A stretch of DNA of 64,000 nucleotides, from the NCBI RefSeq assembly GCF_001697225.1, contig NZ_CP014671.1, positions 1,798,001 through 1,862,000 of the forward strand, written 5' to 3'. Both the position numbers and the translations under genes were made by a program. Below are positions 1 to 16,926 of this stretch, one piece after another. The first letter of the stretch is position 1. Every line of letters starts with the position of its first letter. This DNA is from Immundisolibacter cernigliae (GTDB lineage: Bacteria; Pseudomonadota; Gammaproteobacteria; Immundisolibacterales; Immundisolibacteraceae). The notes under the pieces were generated by a model that was given only the letters and a program-made list of their open reading frames with translations, ran no database searches and was not told the origin of the DNA.

Positions 1-682
1 CGGAGTGCTCGATCAGGTCCAGGAAACTGTCCTTGGGGCTGAAGATGCCGGTGTCGTCCGCAAACAGACAGAACAGCAGCCGCACCAGGTACAGCTGCAA
101 GCCGTGGCCGGCGCGGCCGGTGGCCGGGTCCACGCCGTAGCCGTCGCGGCGCAGCGCGTCGTGCAGGGCGCCCAGCAGTTCGACGGCGCGAATGTTGAGC
201 GGGTCTTCGTCGCGCACGCGCACGTCGGCGTAGCCGGCGATGAAGCCGAAGCGCTCGATGTGGCGCGCCAGCGCGCCGAGCGGGAATTCGTCCTGGCGGC
301 CGGTTTCGAGGTCGTACAGGCGGATGCGGGCGAAGTCCGACACCACCACGTAGCGCGGCAGCTCGTGGTCCGGGATGCCGGCGAAGTAGTCGGTGGCCTG
401 CGTGTAGGCGGCGGCAAGATCCGCCCCGGCGCTCTTGTGCTCACCCAGCAGCAGACCCGGCCAGAACACGTCGATGCGCCCCATGCCGGGCCGGCCGAAG
501 CGTGCCGCGGCGCGCTCGAACACCACCTGCGCGCGCCGCCGGTGCACGCCGAACACGGCCAGGAACTCGTTCCAGAAGGTCTGCGCCTCGGCCCGCTCGG
601 AGCCGGCATCCGCCCAGTCGCGGGCAAAGGCCACGGCGCGGGCGCGGATGTCGGCCCAGGTGAGGCGGGTGGGGGCGTTCAT
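1..682 (-). CDS. MmeI-type (type IIL) restriction-modification enzyme, N-terminal part
   Basis: Partial gene; about 227 N-terminal residues are visible and the C-terminus lies beyond position 1. The reading frame starts at ATG 682 and stays open to the edge. Residues about 70-92 carry an Asp, then GEHKS, the D-x(n)-E-x-K signature of the PD-(D/E)xK nuclease domain that begins MmeI-family enzymes. In that family it is followed by a helicase spacer and an N6-adenine methyltransferase; those parts cannot be seen here. The role is therefore inferred as a single-chain restriction/modification protein. Its ATG overlaps the stop of the upstream fic gene (ATGA), so the two are probably translated together. 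Confidence 0.8.
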   Translation of the reverse strand, partial: MNAPTRLTWADIRARAVAFARDWADAGSERAEAQTFWNEFLAVFGVHRRRAQVVFERAAARFGRPGMGRIDVFWPGLLLGEHKSAGADLAAAYTQATDYFAGIPDHELPRYVVVSDFARIRLYDLETGRQDEFPLGALARHIERFGFIAGYADVRVRDEDPLNIRAVELLGALHDALRRDGYGVDPATGRAGHGLQLYLVRLLFCLFADDTGIFSPKDSFLDLIEHS

Positions 683-1839
683 AGCGGCTGGGTGTCCTCG
701 GACAGGATGTCCAGACAGGCCGTGTAGACGAACACGCGGTTGCGCTGGCGGCCGGGCAGCTCGCGGACCATGCCCAGTTCGACGAGGCGACGAAAGACCG
801 CAGTGACCGTGGTGCGGTTGATGCCGGTGGCGGCGACGGCCTCGGCAACGCGGCTCACGGGGCGCTGCTGCAGGTGACGGTGCACTTCCAGTGCGGACGT
901 GGCGATGCGTCCCAGGCCGCGGATGCGCTCGCGATCCTGTTCGAACAGGCCCAGCAACCGACGCGCGGCATCCACTGCCTGCTGCGCAGTCTCGGCCACG
1001 CCTTTGAGATAAAAGCCAAGCCAGCCTTCCCAGTCGCCGTGGGTGCGCACGCGCTGCAGGCGGTCGTAGTACTCCAGCCGGTGCACCTTGAAATACAGGC
1101 TCAGGTACAGCAATGGCTGGCGCAGCACGCCGGCATCCACCAGCATCAGGATGATCAGCAACCGCCCGAGGCGGCCGTTGCCGTCCAGAAAAGGGTGAAT
1201 GGTTTCGAACTGCACGTGCGCCAGTGCCGTCTTGACCAGCACCGGCAGGCCGCCGTCATCGCCGTGCAGGAAGCGTTCCAGGGCGTCCAGGCATTCGGCC
1301 AGCCGCTCGGGCGGTGGCGGCACGAAGGCGGCATTGCCCGGCCGCGTGCCGCCCAGCCAGTTCTGACTGCGCCGAAACTCGCCCGGTTGCTTGTGCGCGC
1401 CGCGGCCGTGGGCAAGCAGCACGCCGTGAATCTCGCGCAGCAGGCGCAGGCACAGCGGAAAGTCCCCGGCCAGGCGCTTGAGGCCATGGTCCAGCGCGGC
1501 CACGTACTGCGAAACCTCCGCCACGTCATCCAGCGGGGCGCCGGGGGCTTCCGCAAGCTCGAACAGCAACAAATCGGACAGGGACGACTGCGTGCCCTCG
1601 ATCTGCGAGGACACCACCGCCTCGCGCCGCACGTACTGGTACAGGAACAGGTTGCGGTCGGGCAGCAGATCGGCAATGCCGTCCAGGCGACCGAGCGCAC
1701 GGTTGGCCTGTTCGAGCAGGGTCAGCAGGTCGGCATCGATTGCCAGCGGCGGGTCCGGCGGCAGCGGCGCCGGGACATGGGCCCGGTAGGTTTCGCCGGC
1801 CGTGGCGCAGTGCACGTACTGGCCGCTGTTTCGCTCCAT
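679..1839 (-). CDS. Fic family AMP-transferase with C-terminal winged helix
   Basis: 386 residues. The Fic core motif HPFLDGNGRLGR lies at residues 215-226 with the catalytic His at 215; family members usually transfer AMP from ATP to a protein hydroxyl. Residues 77-82 (SSQIEG) fit the (S/T)xxxE(G/N) inhibitory helix, and its N-terminal position marks a class II self-inhibited Fic with Glu81 blocking ATP. The C-terminal 70 residues (ATGINRTTVTAVFRRL) look like a winged helix-turn-helix, so it may bind DNA and regulate its own operon. It overlaps the downstream MmeI-type gene by 4 bases. Target protein unknown. Confidence 0.9.
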   Translation of the reverse strand: MERNSGQYVHCATAGETYRAHVPAPLPPDPPLAIDADLLTLLEQANRALGRLDGIADLLPDRNLFLYQYVRREAVVSSQIEGTQSSLSDLLLFELAEAPGAPLDDVAEVSQYVAALDHGLKRLAGDFPLCLRLLREIHGVLLAHGRGAHKQPGEFRRSQNWLGGTRPGNAAFVPPPPERLAECLDALERFLHGDDGGLPVLVKTALAHVQFETIHPFLDGNGRLGRLLIILMLVDAGVLRQPLLYLSLYFKVHRLEYYDRLQRVRTHGDWEGWLGFYLKGVAETAQQAVDAARRLLGLFEQDRERIRGLGRIATSALEVHRHLQQRPVSRVAEAVAATGINRTTVTAVFRRLVELGMVRELPGRQRNRVFVYTACLDILSEDTQPL

Positions 1840-1863
1840 GGGCGGTCCCGCAAGGCCACTAAA

Positions 1864-1950
1864 GTTGCGTAACGCTAAGCCCGGCTCGGCGCTTATGCAA
1901 CCTTATCGGCTGAACGTTGCATAAGAGGCTGGCGTGGCGCGCCTTATGCA
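1864..1950. promoter_or_regulatory. Four TTATGCAA-type operator-like sites upstream of fic
   Basis: Copies read GTTGCGTAAC (1864-1873), CTTATGCAAC (1892-1901), GTTGCATAAG (1916-1925) and CTTATGCA (1943-1950). Orientation alternates, and copies two and three are perfect inverted repeats of each other. Starts are 24-28 bases apart. A possible minus-strand promoter for fic, TTGCAT (1895-1900) and TAGCGT (1872-1877) with a 17-base spacer, overlaps copies one and two. I infer binding by the Fic winged helix or another regulator. Confidence 0.6.
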
Positions 1951-2028
1951 GTGCCCGCGGCGTATCGGGCCCACGAGGTCAAATCTCGGTGTGGCGCTGA
2001 GCTCGGCCAGGCATGCCCGCCGCGCCGC

Positions 2029-12535: not shown

Positions 12536-14278
12536 TCAAGTCGGGGCGCCGCCGCGTTGTTTCAAGAGCGCCAGCACCTCGGCCCGCTGCTGGGCATCGA
12601 GCTGGCTGGGTGGCACGCCGTGCATCAACGCCTTGCGCCGCTGCGCCTGCGCTGCCTGCGACAATAAGCGCTCGATGATTTCGTGCAGTTCGCGCTGCGC
12701 CGACGCGAGTTCCTCCGGCACCAACTCGCTGTGGGCCAATATGCTTGACAGGGCAGCGCCGTCGTCGGTGTCGCGCCAGTGCTCCAGCAACAGATCCAGA
12801 CGGGGCTGGCGAAGCTCGCGCAGCGTCGCAAGCAAGCGCAGCAGCAGATCGACGCCGTCAGAATGCGTGTCGGTCAGAAGCGTCAAATCCCCGACGTGGC
12901 CCACCAGTTGCGGGTAATGCGCCAGCAACAAGATGGCACGCCACACCGGCGATGGTCGCTGTCCAGCTATCCTGGGAATCGCCGGCGAGGCACGCCCGGC
13001 GGGTGCAGGATTCAGCCCGCTACGGCCGACAAAGCCGGTTATTTTTTCTACGATCAGATCCCGGTAGGTTCCTGCCGGCAGCTTTTGCAGCAATGGTTTT
13101 GCCAATTCAGCGAGTTGGGCACGCCCCTCCACGGTGGCTATGTTGGCGCTATTCCTCAAGCGGTCGACCAGATGTTGTGAAACCGGCACTGCCTGGCCGG
13201 CGAGCTCCAGAAACGCCTCCTTGCCGATGCGGCGCACCAGCGAGTCCGGGTCTTCGCCCTCGGGCAGGAACAGCAGGCGCAGGTCGCGCCCGTCGGCCAG
13301 TTCCGGCAGGGCATTGTCGACCGCCCGCTCGGCCGCCCGTCGCCCGGCGTTGTCACCATCGAAGCACAGCACCAGCCGCGGCGTGATGCGAAATGCGGCC
13401 CGCAGGTGCTCTGCCGTCAGCGCGGTACCGAGCACGGCGACGGCGTGGTCGATGCCATGCTGGGCCAGCATCACGACGTCCATGTAGCCTTCGACCACCA
13501 ACAGCAGGTGCGGGTTGCGTGCCTGCCGGAGCACGTTGGGCAGGCCGTACAGTTCGCGGCCCTTGTGAAAAACGGGGGTTTCGGGCGAATTGAGGTATTT
13601 GGGCTCGCCCTGACCGATGATGCGCCCACCGAATCCGATCACCCGGCCGCGACGGTCCTCGATCGGGAACATCACCCGCCCGCGAAAACGGTCATGGCCG
13701 CGGCCGTCTTCGTCACCGGCCAGCAGGCCGGCCCGGCGCAGCAAATCAGCTCCGTACCGCTCGCCCAGCGCGCGGCCCAGGCCATCCCACCCGTCCGGCG
13801 CGAAGCCCAGGTGAAAACGCGCCGCGGTCTTGCCGTCCAGGCCGCGATTTTTCAGGTACTCGACCGCGCCAGCTGCGGCCGGGTGATGGCGCAGTTGCTT
13901 GCGGTAGAAGGCACTCGCCGCGGCCAGCACCTCGTACAGCGCCGCCAGCGAGGTCCCTGATTCGTGCCCCTGCGGGCTCTCCTCCGGCAGCGTCATGCCG
14001 GCGCGCTGGGCAAGCTCCGCGATGGCCTCGCGAAAGTCGAGCCGGTCGATGGCCATCAGGAAGCCGATCACCGTGCCGTGCGCGCCGCAGCCGAAGCAGT
14101 GATAGAACTGCTTTTGCGGACTGACGGTGAACGATGGCGTTTTTTCTTCGTGGAACGGGCAGCGGCCGGCCAGCTCACGGCCGCTGCGGCGCAGCGGCAC
14201 GCGCGCGCCGATGACCTCGGCGATGTCGGTGCGCGCCAGGACAGCGTCGATGAAGTCTTCGGGTATCCGGCCGCTCAT
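12536..14278 (-). CDS. dnaG: DNA primase DnaG
   Basis: 580 residues from ATG 14278 (a GTG nine bases upstream is possible). The zinc-binding CHC2 motif (CPFHEEKTPSF, then FYHCFGCG) begins near residue 37. TOPRIM residues follow: VVEGYMDVV and CFDGDNAGRRAAERA. The C-terminal 150 residues should bind DnaB helicase. It makes RNA primers at the replication fork. rpsU, which often precedes dnaG, is absent; a dioxygenase gene lies upstream instead. Confidence 0.97.
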   Translation of the reverse strand: MSGRIPEDFIDAVLARTDIAEVIGARVPLRRSGRELAGRCPFHEEKTPSFTVSPQKQFYHCFGCGAHGTVIGFLMAIDRLDFREAIAELAQRAGMTLPEESPQGHESGTSLAALYEVLAAASAFYRKQLRHHPAAAGAVEYLKNRGLDGKTAARFHLGFAPDGWDGLGRALGERYGADLLRRAGLLAGDEDGRGHDRFRGRVMFPIEDRRGRVIGFGGRIIGQGEPKYLNSPETPVFHKGRELYGLPNVLRQARNPHLLLVVEGYMDVVMLAQHGIDHAVAVLGTALTAEHLRAAFRITPRLVLCFDGDNAGRRAAERAVDNALPELADGRDLRLLFLPEGEDPDSLVRRIGKEAFLELAGQAVPVSQHLVDRLRNSANIATVEGRAQLAELAKPLLQKLPAGTYRDLIVEKITGFVGRSGLNPAPAGRASPAIPRIAGQRPSPVWRAILLLAHYPQLVGHVGDLTLLTDTHSDGVDLLLRLLATLRELRQPRLDLLLEHWRDTDDGAALSSILAHSELVPEELASAQRELHEIIERLLSQAAQAQRRKALMHGVPPSQLDAQQRAEVLALLKQRGGAPT

Positions 14279-14363
14279 GCCGTCCACGATAGCGCGGGCG
14301 AGCGGGCCGGGGAAGGCAGGCTCCCGGCCGCCACGGCGACCGGGAGGTGCAACGCGGTTTCGA

Positions 14364-14840
14364 TCAGATCGGATACACGATGTAGCGCGGCGCCACGTTG
14401 GTATCCATCACCGCGCGGCGGGACTTGAGCTTGGCGCCGCCGCTGCCGAGCACGATCTGGTCCACGTAGCGGCCGCAGACCAGGGTGCCGGTGTTGCCGG
14501 CCGAATCGGTATAGAACACGGTGAAGTTGCTCACCGTCTCGTACAGGTCGCCGCCCTTCGGAGTGCAGGCGATGCGCTGCACGAAATGACGGGTCTGGTA
14601 GTCCTCGAAGGTGCCAGCCCAGACCTTGGTCACGTAGGTGACGCGGTCTTCCAGGCGCTCGTGGCAGTCGTCCATCATCAGCGCCAGCGGCAGGCCGCTT
14701 TCCTCGTTTTCGTTGGCGATGCAGACGTACGAGCCATCGCTGGCGAAGGTGTCCAGCCAGGCGGCCATGTCCTTGCTGTCCAGCGCGGCGATGTAGCGGG
14801 TCTGCAGCGCGTCGATCTGCTGCAACGCTTCCTGGGTCAT
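14364..14840 (-). CDS. Aromatic-ring-hydroxylating dioxygenase, beta (small) subunit
   Basis: 158 residues, NTF2-like fold of the small dioxygenase subunits. YIAALDSKDMAAWLDTFA near residue 16 and ESGLPLALMMDDCHERLEDRV resemble the family's helical opening and active-region loop. The subunit has a structural role in the alpha3beta3 oxygenase. It follows the alpha subunit gene by 3 bases, so the two form one transcriptional unit. The substrate cannot be read from this subunit. Confidence 0.87.
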   Translation of the reverse strand: MTQEALQQIDALQTRYIAALDSKDMAAWLDTFASDGSYVCIANENEESGLPLALMMDDCHERLEDRVTYVTKVWAGTFEDYQTRHFVQRIACTPKGGDLYETVSNFTVFYTDSAGNTGTLVCGRYVDQIVLGSGGAKLKSRRAVMDTNVAPRYIVYPI

Positions 14841-14843
14841 TGA

Positions 14844-16031
14844 TCAGCTCTCCTCTCGTATGAAGCCCATGACGCGCCGGTAGTACTCCCATTTGGGCAG
14901 ATTGCCGGCCTCGTCGTTTTGTTTGAAATCGAACCACATGCCGTGTTCCTGCTTGACGCCCTTCTGGAACACGGCGTTGCCCGGCGTGCGATTGCCCTGC
15001 TGCACGCGCAGGAAAATCGACGCGTCCTCCATCGACACCATGCCGCACGGCCCGAGCATGTTCGAGGACTGGCGCAGACGGTGGCGCACCATGTCCGCGT
15101 CGTCGTCGACGTGCGCGAAATAGGCGTAGTGCACTTCGGTCTTGAGCAGCGAGCGAGCCACCGCGAAGCGCACGTTGATCATGTCAAGGTGCTTGGTCAT
15201 CACCGTCAGCGGGTTCAGGCCGACGATGACCGAACCCTTGGAGGTGTGCGAGCCCTTGAAGGCGATCAGCGACGGGTCCCGCAAGAAGCCATTGTTGGTC
15301 GGCACCTTCAGTTCCGACTCGAACGCGATGTGCCCGTTCTCAGTGGCGTATTGCGAGCCCTTGCCGCCCTGCCAGTTCAGCATCTTGAAGGCCAGGTGCA
15401 ACAGCGGGGCGTGGTAGCCGTCGTTGTCGACGTAGGCCTTCCAGTTGCAGTCGTAGCTGACCTTCTGGTAGCCGAGCAGTTTCAGACGTCCGTCGCCGCC
15501 CAGCAGCTGCATCAGCGCCGGCTGCGTGCGACCCAGCCAGGTGTCGATGTCCGGCGTGGCATCGTGCAGGGTGGCGAAGATCAGGCCGCCGACGATGGCG
15601 CTGCGCACTTGCGCCAGCCCCGAACCTTCCATGGTGAAGCTGGGTGAGAAGTCTTCCTTGCCCGGGCAGCCGCGCAGGGCGCCCGTGCTGTCGAACAGCC
15701 AGCGATGGTAGGGGCACTCGAACTCGGCCTTGTTGCCGCGGTTGTTGGTTTCAAGCAGCGTGCCGCGGTGCGCGCAGGCGTTGTAGAACACCCGTACCTG
15801 GCCGTCCTGGCCGTGCACGATCAGCAGCGGCCGCTCGCCTATATGAAAGGTCTTGAAGTCGCCGATGCTCGGGATTTCGCCGGTGTGGGCAACCGGGTGC
15901 CATTCGGGACCATAGAAGATGCGTTCCAGTTCGAGCCGGAATACGTCCTCGCGGTCGAAAATGTCTTTCGGTACTTCGTTGATCTTGGCCGGCCAGTGGA
16001 CCGGCGCGCCGAAAACGGTGGGGGCGTTCAT
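14844..16031 (-). CDS. Rieske aromatic-ring dioxygenase, alpha (large) subunit
   Basis: 395 residues. Rieske [2Fe-2S] ligands are C86/H88 (CAHRG) and C106/H109 (CPYHRW). The mononuclear-iron motif D-x2-H-x4-H is at D204, H207 and H212. The start at ATG 16031 has GGAG eight bases upstream; a TTG at 16046 is less likely. The enzyme adds O2 across an aromatic ring to give a cis-dihydrodiol, taking electrons from a ferredoxin and reductase not encoded nearby. It is somewhat shorter than biphenyl or naphthalene dioxygenases. A BphB-like dehydrogenase lies just upstream. Confidence 0.92.
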   Translation of the reverse strand: MNAPTVFGAPVHWPAKINEVPKDIFDREDVFRLELERIFYGPEWHPVAHTGEIPSIGDFKTFHIGERPLLIVHGQDGQVRVFYNACAHRGTLLETNNRGNKAEFECPYHRWLFDSTGALRGCPGKEDFSPSFTMEGSGLAQVRSAIVGGLIFATLHDATPDIDTWLGRTQPALMQLLGGDGRLKLLGYQKVSYDCNWKAYVDNDGYHAPLLHLAFKMLNWQGGKGSQYATENGHIAFESELKVPTNNGFLRDPSLIAFKGSHTSKGSVIVGLNPLTVMTKHLDMINVRFAVARSLLKTEVHYAYFAHVDDDADMVRHRLRQSSNMLGPCGMVSMEDASIFLRVQQGNRTPGNAVFQKGVKQEHGMWFDFKQNDEAGNLPKWEYYRRVMGFIREES

Positions 16032-16072
16032 GGCGGCACTCTCCAAAACGTGAGGATAGACGTTACCGAATG

Positions 16073-16078
16073 ATTGTA
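16073..16078 (-). promoter_or_regulatory. Possible -10 element (TACAAT) upstream of the dioxygenase alpha gene
   Basis: TACAAT on the minus strand, 42 bases before the alpha-subunit ATG. No good -35 is visible, which would fit an activator-dependent promoter. The same GATTGTA context (plus-strand reading) recurs at 16984-16990 upstream of the dehydrogenase gene. Confidence 0.35.
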
Positions 16079-16110
16079 TACGCCGGCGTGCCGGCGATGG
16101 CCACGGCTCT

Positions 16111-16926
16111 CTACAAGTCCTCGCCGCCGGCCATCTTGGTGAAACCGCGTGCGCCCAGGCCGCCGTCGGTATTGATCACCACGCCGGTCATCGGCGCCGA
16201 GTTGGCACGCGAGGCGAGCAACACGTACGGGCCGCAGTAGTCGTCGGGTACGGCCGCGATCTGAAGGGGCGAGATGCTGCGCATCATGTCTTCCAGCCCG
16301 TCCATCTGGCTGAGTTTGACCCCGGCGGTGCCGGTGGCGGCCAGGCCGCCAAGTTCGGTCTTCATGCCGCCGGGGGCGACGCCGTTGACGCGCACCTTGG
16401 GGGCCAGTTCATAGGCCAGCTCCCGTACCAGGCCGACCACGGCATGCTTGGATGCCGTGTAGATCGGCCCGCCGCCGGCCGGATAAAAACCGGCATTGGA
16501 GATGGTGTAGATGATGCTGCCGCGCGTCTTGAGCAGCTGCGGCAGGGCCGCCTTGGCGCCCAGCAGGTAACCTTTGACGTTGACCGCGAACAGCTCGTCG
16601 AAGGCGGCCGAAATCCGCTCGGCGTCAATCTGCGGCAGGGTCTGGAAGTAGTCGAACACGCCGGCGTTGCCGATGAAGGTGTCGAGTTTGCCAAAGCGCG
16701 CCACGGTGTCCTGCACCACGCGCGCGTTGTCGGCGTAGGTGGTGACGTCGCCGGTGACGGCCAGCACGCGGTCGCCGAAGTCCTGCGTCAGCTGCGCCGC
16801 CTTGGCCGGATCGCGCTCCAGCACGCCCACGCTGGCGCCCTCGGCGATGAAGCGCTGCACCAGCGCCCGGCCCAGGCCCGAGCCGCCGCCTGTGACGATT
16901 GCAACCGTATTGTCCAGCCAGCCCAT
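16111..16926 (-). CDS. cis-dihydrodiol dehydrogenase (BphB-like SDR)
   Basis: 271 residues, short-chain dehydrogenase. NAD-binding TGGGSGLGR at 12-20, NAG near residue 89, and the catalytic Ser/Tyr/Lys set in SNAGFYPAGGGPIYTASKHA. Resemblance runs throughout to cis-2,3-dihydrobiphenyl-2,3-diol dehydrogenase, including the NVKGYL, LVRELAYELAP and GGLGARGF segments. It would oxidise the dihydrodiol made by the adjacent dioxygenase to a catechol. The two genes share strand and are separated by 79 bases. The actual ring substrate is unknown. Confidence 0.88.
   Translation of the reverse strand: MGWLDNTVAIVTGGGSGLGRALVQRFIAEGASVGVLERDPAKAAQLTQDFGDRVLAVTGDVTTYADNARVVQDTVARFGKLDTFIGNAGVFDYFQTLPQIDAERISAAFDELFAVNVKGYLLGAKAALPQLLKTRGSIIYTISNAGFYPAGGGPIYTASKHAVVGLVRELAYELAPKVRVNGVAPGGMKTELGGLAATGTAGVKLSQMDGLEDMMRSISPLQIAAVPDDYCGPYVLLASRANSAPMTGVVINTDGGLGARGFTKMAGGEDL

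Follow-up and report, generated by a model that had tools for sequence, protein, structure and literature searches.

The location of a gene encoding a Fic protein directly ahead of a gene encoding an MmeI-type restriction-modification (RM) enzyme in Immundisolibacter cernigliae raises the question of whether the Fic protein controls the operon that it heads, and how the two proteins would act together in defence. The original prediction had placed Fic in the part of the controller protein of an RM system or, in a different scenario, had it AMPylate a target in the host upon disturbance of the RM enzyme. We have addressed this question in a window of 64,000 bases (G000:C1:1798001-1862000), which is part of a genome consisting of one contig of 3.24 Mb, and in comparison with relatives of both proteins.

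Organization of the locus and its two proteins

On the minus strand, fic is located first and is followed by mmeI, with an ATGA common to both reading frames (Table 1), which bears out the predicted four-base overlap between the stop of one and the start of the other gene. Via this overlap the translation of mmeI is likely coupled to fic, and the overlap together with the location of both genes in a single acquired block implies their cotranscription. The arrangement leaves no space between the two genes for an antitoxin gene of the AS1 kind.

The mmeI gene continues beyond the edge of the window, which covers its first 227 codons, and in its entirety (G000:C1:1795746-1798682, equivalent to positions 13746-16682 of the locus L004) encodes 978 residues. 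The domains MmeI_N, MmeI_hel, MmeI_Mtase, MmeI_TRD and MmeI_C were all detected above the Pfam cut-off, and the full methyltransferase that was to be sought past the first position of the window is complete. The protein aligns with MmeI (5hr4; PMC4833311) over almost its full length and shares with it all five domains, the D-X9-EXK nuclease motif and the motifs DPACGCGNF and NPPF, but it is 59 residues longer and predicted to be cotranscribed with fic. Its single chain, combining nuclease, helical spacer, methyltransferase, TRD and C-terminal domains, is that of a type IIL enzyme. The same genome contains a second complete MmeI-type gene, encoding 920 residues, on the plus strand at about 2.55 Mb (L005 8289-11051, G000:C1:2553289-2556051), which is solitary and has no fic neighbour.

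The Fic protein contains Fic_N and Fic as its only Pfam domains and matches the PADLOC SoFic profile with an E value of 3.8e-121 over positions 5-360 of 361, which places it among the SoFic-type proteins. With a score of 174.1 bits it is far below the curated cut-off of 550 bits of the NCBIfam SoFic equivalog NF046030, and we classify it from its sequence as a SoFic relative of about 30% identity rather than as an equivalog. Class II Fic AMPylases are defined by a catalytic motif HPFx(D/E)GNGRxxR and an N-terminal inhibitory motif (S/T)xxxE(G/N), both of which are intact (HPFLDGNGRLGR and SSQIEG), in line with the inhibitory helix that had been anticipated. The equally anticipated winged helix is found at the C-terminus of an AlphaFold model (pLDDT 83.8, pTM 0.84), where it comprises helices at residues 310-325, 331-338 and 342-354 and strands at 359-361 and 369-371, with a pLDDT mostly above 90 across residues 310-360 and lower values in the wing. 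In this model, residues 342-354 likely constitute the recognition helix. A Foldseek comparison aligned the model with SoFic over 365 columns (TM 0.77, 30% identity), whereas CccR and CbFic2 match less closely.

Table 1. Features of the fic-mmeI locus, in window coordinates.
Feature	Position	Strand	Description or basis
Window part of the acquired block	1-2026		comparison with congener G001
5' part of the MmeI-type (type IIL) restriction-modification gene	1-682	minus	Pfam; alignment with MmeI 5hr4
Endonuclease motif D71-X9-E81-H-K83 of the MmeI-type enzyme	434-472	minus	aligned with MmeI catalytic D70, E80, K82
ATGA overlap, fic stop/mmeI start	679-682	minus	sequence; likely translational coupling
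fic gene	679-1839	minus	386 aa, SoFic-type class II Fic with C-terminal winged helix
Winged helix-turn-helix domain, about residues 310-380	700-912	minus	AlphaFold model
Likely recognition helix, residues 342-354	778-816	minus	AlphaFold model; covariation with operator sequence
Fic catalytic motif HPFLDGNGRLGR, residues 215-226	1162-1197	minus	sequence
Class II inhibitory motif S77-S-Q-I-E81-G82	1594-1611	minus	sequence
Putative operator half-site 1, TTGCGTAA (TTACGCAA on the minus strand)	1865-1872	minus	site scan, composition-aware test
Putative operator half-site 2, TTATGCAA	1893-1900	plus	perfect inverted pair with half-site 3
Putative operator half-site 3, TTGCATAA (TTATGCAA on the minus strand)	1917-1924	minus	inverted pair with half-site 2
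Putative operator half-site 4, TTATGCAG	1944-1951	plus	site scan, composition-aware test

Operator-like sites ahead of fic and its relatives

Upstream of fic, within its own promoter region as in the case of CccR, four sites alternate in orientation with steps of 28, 24 and 27 bases, the central two forming a perfect 10-base inverted repeat (1892-1925), all of which agrees with the predicted architecture. Sites of the same direction are separated by 52 bases (half-sites 1 and 3) and 51 bases (half-sites 2 and 4). Throughout the window, TTATGCAA-like sites with at most one mismatch are found nine times compared to 12 expected, four of the nine in the cluster ahead of fic. Among 457 blocks of 140 bases scored in a composition-aware test, this cluster ranks first, and it is more extreme than all of 400 shuffles. 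We no longer regard the mere number of four 8-mer sites as proof, since an unweighted count of any 8-mer family commonly finds four sites in 189 bases of shuffled sequence, and rely on the composition-aware test instead. The 10-mer CTTATGCAAC, which constitutes the perfect arms, exists in exactly two copies in the 3.24-Mb genome, both upstream of fic, and because it is absent from the rest of the genome we reject a wider regulon. A structured RNA is likewise rejected, as the region has no match in Rfam. Consensus scans around the sites found neither a terminator nor a sigma-70 promoter, and the possible promoter that the sites had been thought to overlap was thus not confirmed. We count this result against our preferred interpretation, in which the occlusion of a promoter is a proposal.

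To place these sites in a wider context, fic homologues were collected from relatives in the same class and from two further sources, GTDB genomes and viral contigs, with 80 loci each. Alternating inverted sites precede most of them, in arrays of up to six, with sequences that differ between loci, while some homologues are without clear sites. Inverted arms matching at 10 of 10 bases were found in 34 of 98 fic promoters compared to 2.2% of shuffles, and arms matching at nine or more in 73 of 98 compared to 15.7%. Direct repeats peak sharply at a distance of 41 bases (47 of 96 loci, with 3.0 expected from composition-keeping shuffles), with additional peaks at 30, 31 and 40 bases. The pattern was replicated in 57 independent viral-contig loci, where repeats at 31 bases (22 observed, 2.2 expected), 41 bases (19, 1.9), 51 bases (8, 1.8) and 62 bases (15, 1.7) exceed expectation, and where the peaks at 31, 41-42, 51 and 62 bases correspond to three to six helical turns, accompanied by a small peak at 18. 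The 41-base repeats are present in 42.8% of fic promoters compared to 5.3% of control promoters of other genes at the same loci, and although these controls are higher in G+C, this caveat is answered by the shuffles of the 41-base and viral-contig analyses, which keep composition. The present locus belongs to a five-turn class that is rarer among fic loci. Upstream of a distant homologue (L025), AAACGCACTTATAA-like copies follow each other in 40-base steps, an arrangement that differs from the alternating arrays. The IMG/VR viral contigs contain at least 80 SoFic-type genes (L124-L203) that follow the same spacing rule, and phages or prophages thus seem to be carriers of the family. Of the conservation expected in relatives, the alternating architecture and its spacing have held, whereas the sequence TTATGCAA has not: 368 other genomes of the class all lack its 9-base inverted pair, and viral contigs with this pattern encode no Fic.

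If Fic binds its sites, its recognition helix would be expected to covary with the operator, and such covariation was observed. The similarity of operators is correlated with that of the helices (r 0.45; partial r 0.37) more strongly than with that of the Fic domains (r 0.29). Scanning the protein with a 20-residue sliding window, after removing rest-of-protein identity and G+C, produced a single peak at residues 333-357, which contain the recognition helix of the winged helix (permutation p 0.001, in a test that takes loci as exchangeable and with covariates that remove shared ancestry only in part). Sampled windows outside the winged helix reach at most 0.14, and shuffled promoters are close to zero. 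The recognition helix of the present protein has no near relative among the compared loci that would permit a direct check of the code. The presence of paired promoter sites with differing sequences but one spacing rule, across relatives in many phyla, suggests that these Fic proteins control their own gene and the defence gene that follows it.

Acquisition of the block and the partners of fic

A congener (G001), in which 133 bases separate ppk from otsA, has an empty site and lacks MmeI_N in its genome. In I. cernigliae, the same two genes enclose about 5.3 kb (approximately positions 12690-18026 of L004) with a transposase-like gene, mmeI, fic and the operator-like sites. Judged from this comparison, the fic-mmeI operon is horizontally acquired together with its own regulatory region. 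The transposase-like reading frame (L004 12831-13622, in the region 12700-13700), named from its sequence alone as REP-associated tyrosine type, lies within this acquired block as well and is surrounded by repeated GGGCATGGCCCG and CGGGCCATGCCC elements. In a second congener (L123, G002:C163:17200-27200), the distance between ppk and otsA amounts to 9.4 kb, which is occupied by transporter-like and other genes, with neither fic nor mmeI between them.

Within the genomes and contigs searched, the pairing of fic with mmeI is unique to I. cernigliae. An MmeI gene is found near fic in none of the 80 nearest genome relatives and none of the 80 viral-contig relatives, and in 83 MmeI_N-bearing genomes (39 in the class and 44 more in the phylum) no Fic_N adjoins MmeI_N besides I. 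cernigliae itself. On plasmids, none of the three neighbourhoods of relatives that were read contains the pair, and no accession is common to Fic and MmeI among the 60 matches listed for each protein. We have thus discarded the idea of a conserved fic-MmeI module in unrelated genomes, for which the present locus is the single case among all genomes and contigs searched.

Most fic homologues stand alone and partners vary between loci, with restriction-type genes in the flanks of 18 of 109 genome loci. Genes following fic with a four-base overlap encode HsdR-like proteins (L015, L098) and HsdM (L107), and other partners include HsdS (L017, L070), a type IIG-like enzyme (L047), a DNA methylase (L079) and an OLD nuclease (L085). 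This recurrence indicates that the SoFic-type family tends toward restriction operons without a fixed partner. The pair of Fic and type IIG-like enzyme is nearly the same on a viral contig (L145) and in Rhodovarius (L047), with enzymes that are 93-98% identical, which is a sign of the recent transfer of a fic-RM pair.

Proposed role of Fic and its relation to known systems

With a probability of roughly 0.7, we interpret fic-mmeI as a horizontally acquired defence operon in which Fic would act as autorepressor of both genes by means of the alternating half-sites. In such a mechanism, the SoFic-type Fic, probably as a dimer, would contact the half-sites of its own promoter through its C-terminal winged helix, with sites of the same direction separated by full helical turns, five in the present case. 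It would repress fic and the cotranscribed and translationally coupled mmeI, keeping both at a set level, and permit a burst of expression following the entry of the operon into a new cell or the loss of Fic; homeostasis and a burst upon entry are plausible gains of such control. The MmeI-type enzyme would restrict unmodified DNA, and Fic probably is a conditionally active AMPylating toxin that offers a second line of defence, a role that we infer from the report on Sofic (PMC12249575). The phased inverted sites ahead of homologues and the covariation of the recognition helix support a controlling role of Fic, which had been proposed at the outset, while the private pairing with MmeI and the lack of conservation of TTATGCAA do not; the singularity of the pair and the rarer 51/52-base spacing class count against our interpretation, as do the homologues without clear sites and the lack of a near relative of the recognition helix.

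The two genes might also be neighbours by chance, as two pieces of defence cargo of which Fic regulates only itself while mmeI is merely read through. Although we consider this the less probable account, it is one to be taken seriously in light of the uniqueness of the pair among the genome, viral and MmeI-bearing relatives, the second MmeI-type gene without fic and the nearest plasmid relatives examined, which equally lack this neighbour. It has to contend with the ATGA overlap and the single acquired block, which imply cotranscription, and with relatives that recurrently are positioned tightly before other restriction genes, with overlaps of the same length. It is improbable that the TTATGCAA sites are targets of an unrelated regulator of the host or have clustered by chance: the composition-blind count would accommodate chance, but the restriction of the exact 10-mer to this promoter leaves no regulon for such a regulator, and the rank of the cluster in the composition-aware test, the similar architecture ahead of homologues and the helix covariation all argue for a link to Fic.

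Two further scenarios, both of which we hold to be unlikely, concern the activity of the toxin. As PrrC guards EcoprrI, Fic might guard the RM enzyme, staying silent as long as MmeI is intact and AMPylating an essential host protein once a phage disables it. Both the active site and the inhibitory helix of class II are intact, which together with the repeated coupling to type I subunits among relatives makes AMPylation of a host target upon RM disturbance possible, and Sofic has been reported to act by abortive infection (PMC12249575), but variable partners and the many homologues that stand alone offer no conserved contact. Alternatively, SoFic-type proteins could generally be operator-bound toxins, repressing and silent as dimers on phased arrays, from which the loss or occupation of DNA during infection would free active monomers and induce the following defence gene. 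For CbFic2, a shift toward a deAMPylating dimer on DNA has been suggested (PMC10628234). If true, infection would be sensed by the operator array itself, as part of a self-contained abortive-infection switch that has been inserted ahead of many restriction genes.

Our preferred reading, of Fic as autorepressor of the operon, has its closest functional precedent in CccR from Yersinia pseudotuberculosis (PDB 7xux), a Fic toxin that represses its own promoter through binding to AGATAATCAT-N26-ATGATAATCT, where its footprint covers two 10-base repeats in inverted orientation that are separated by 26 bases and located close to -35 and -10 (PMC9755527). Both are class II Fic proteins with a C-terminal DNA-binding helix-turn-helix and inverted repeats in their own promoter, autorepression being established for CccR and predicted here. 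They differ in sequence and fold (19% identity, TM-score about 0.55), and CccR, a T6SS effector for which no RM gene has been reported, binds a single inverted pair with a 26-base spacer as back-to-back dimer. The fold is instead shared over its whole length, including the winged helix, with SoFic from Shewanella oneidensis (3eqx, 3zcn), whose DNA binding was stated as not demonstrated (PMC10628234), and with the E. coli anti-phage protein Sofic (PMC12249575), despite the score far under the equivalog cut-off (174 vs 550 bits). In E. coli, Sofic is followed by the 47-residue antitoxin AS1, whereas here mmeI directly follows fic.

C proteins such as C.Esp1396I and C.Csp231I resemble the proposed Fic autorepressor as dimeric autoregulators with paired operators ahead of an RM gene, but they are small stand-alone helix-turn-helix proteins, whereas Fic is a 386-residue enzyme with a winged helix that probably only represses. 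The part of a C protein as such thus does not fit: Fic is outside that family, and a delay of the endonuclease behind the methyltransferase makes little sense for MmeI, which holds both in one polypeptide. The most likely function of Fic, by analogy to CccR, is that of a portable autorepressor-toxin at the head of a defence operon, with repression of fic-mmeI through binding to its own promoter. New in the present case are an operator rule of general scope and the partnership with MmeI, with support for the logic of a controller but not for a conserved fic-MmeI system. SoFic-type Fic proteins are widespread in defence against phages, and as far as we could locate in the literature, sequence-specific binding to the own promoter has been reported for CccR only. 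The shared operator grammar and helix covariation would account for the use of a single gene as autorepressor ahead of unrelated restriction genes, and they predict the DNA bound by each protein, which makes the proposal testable across many species at once.
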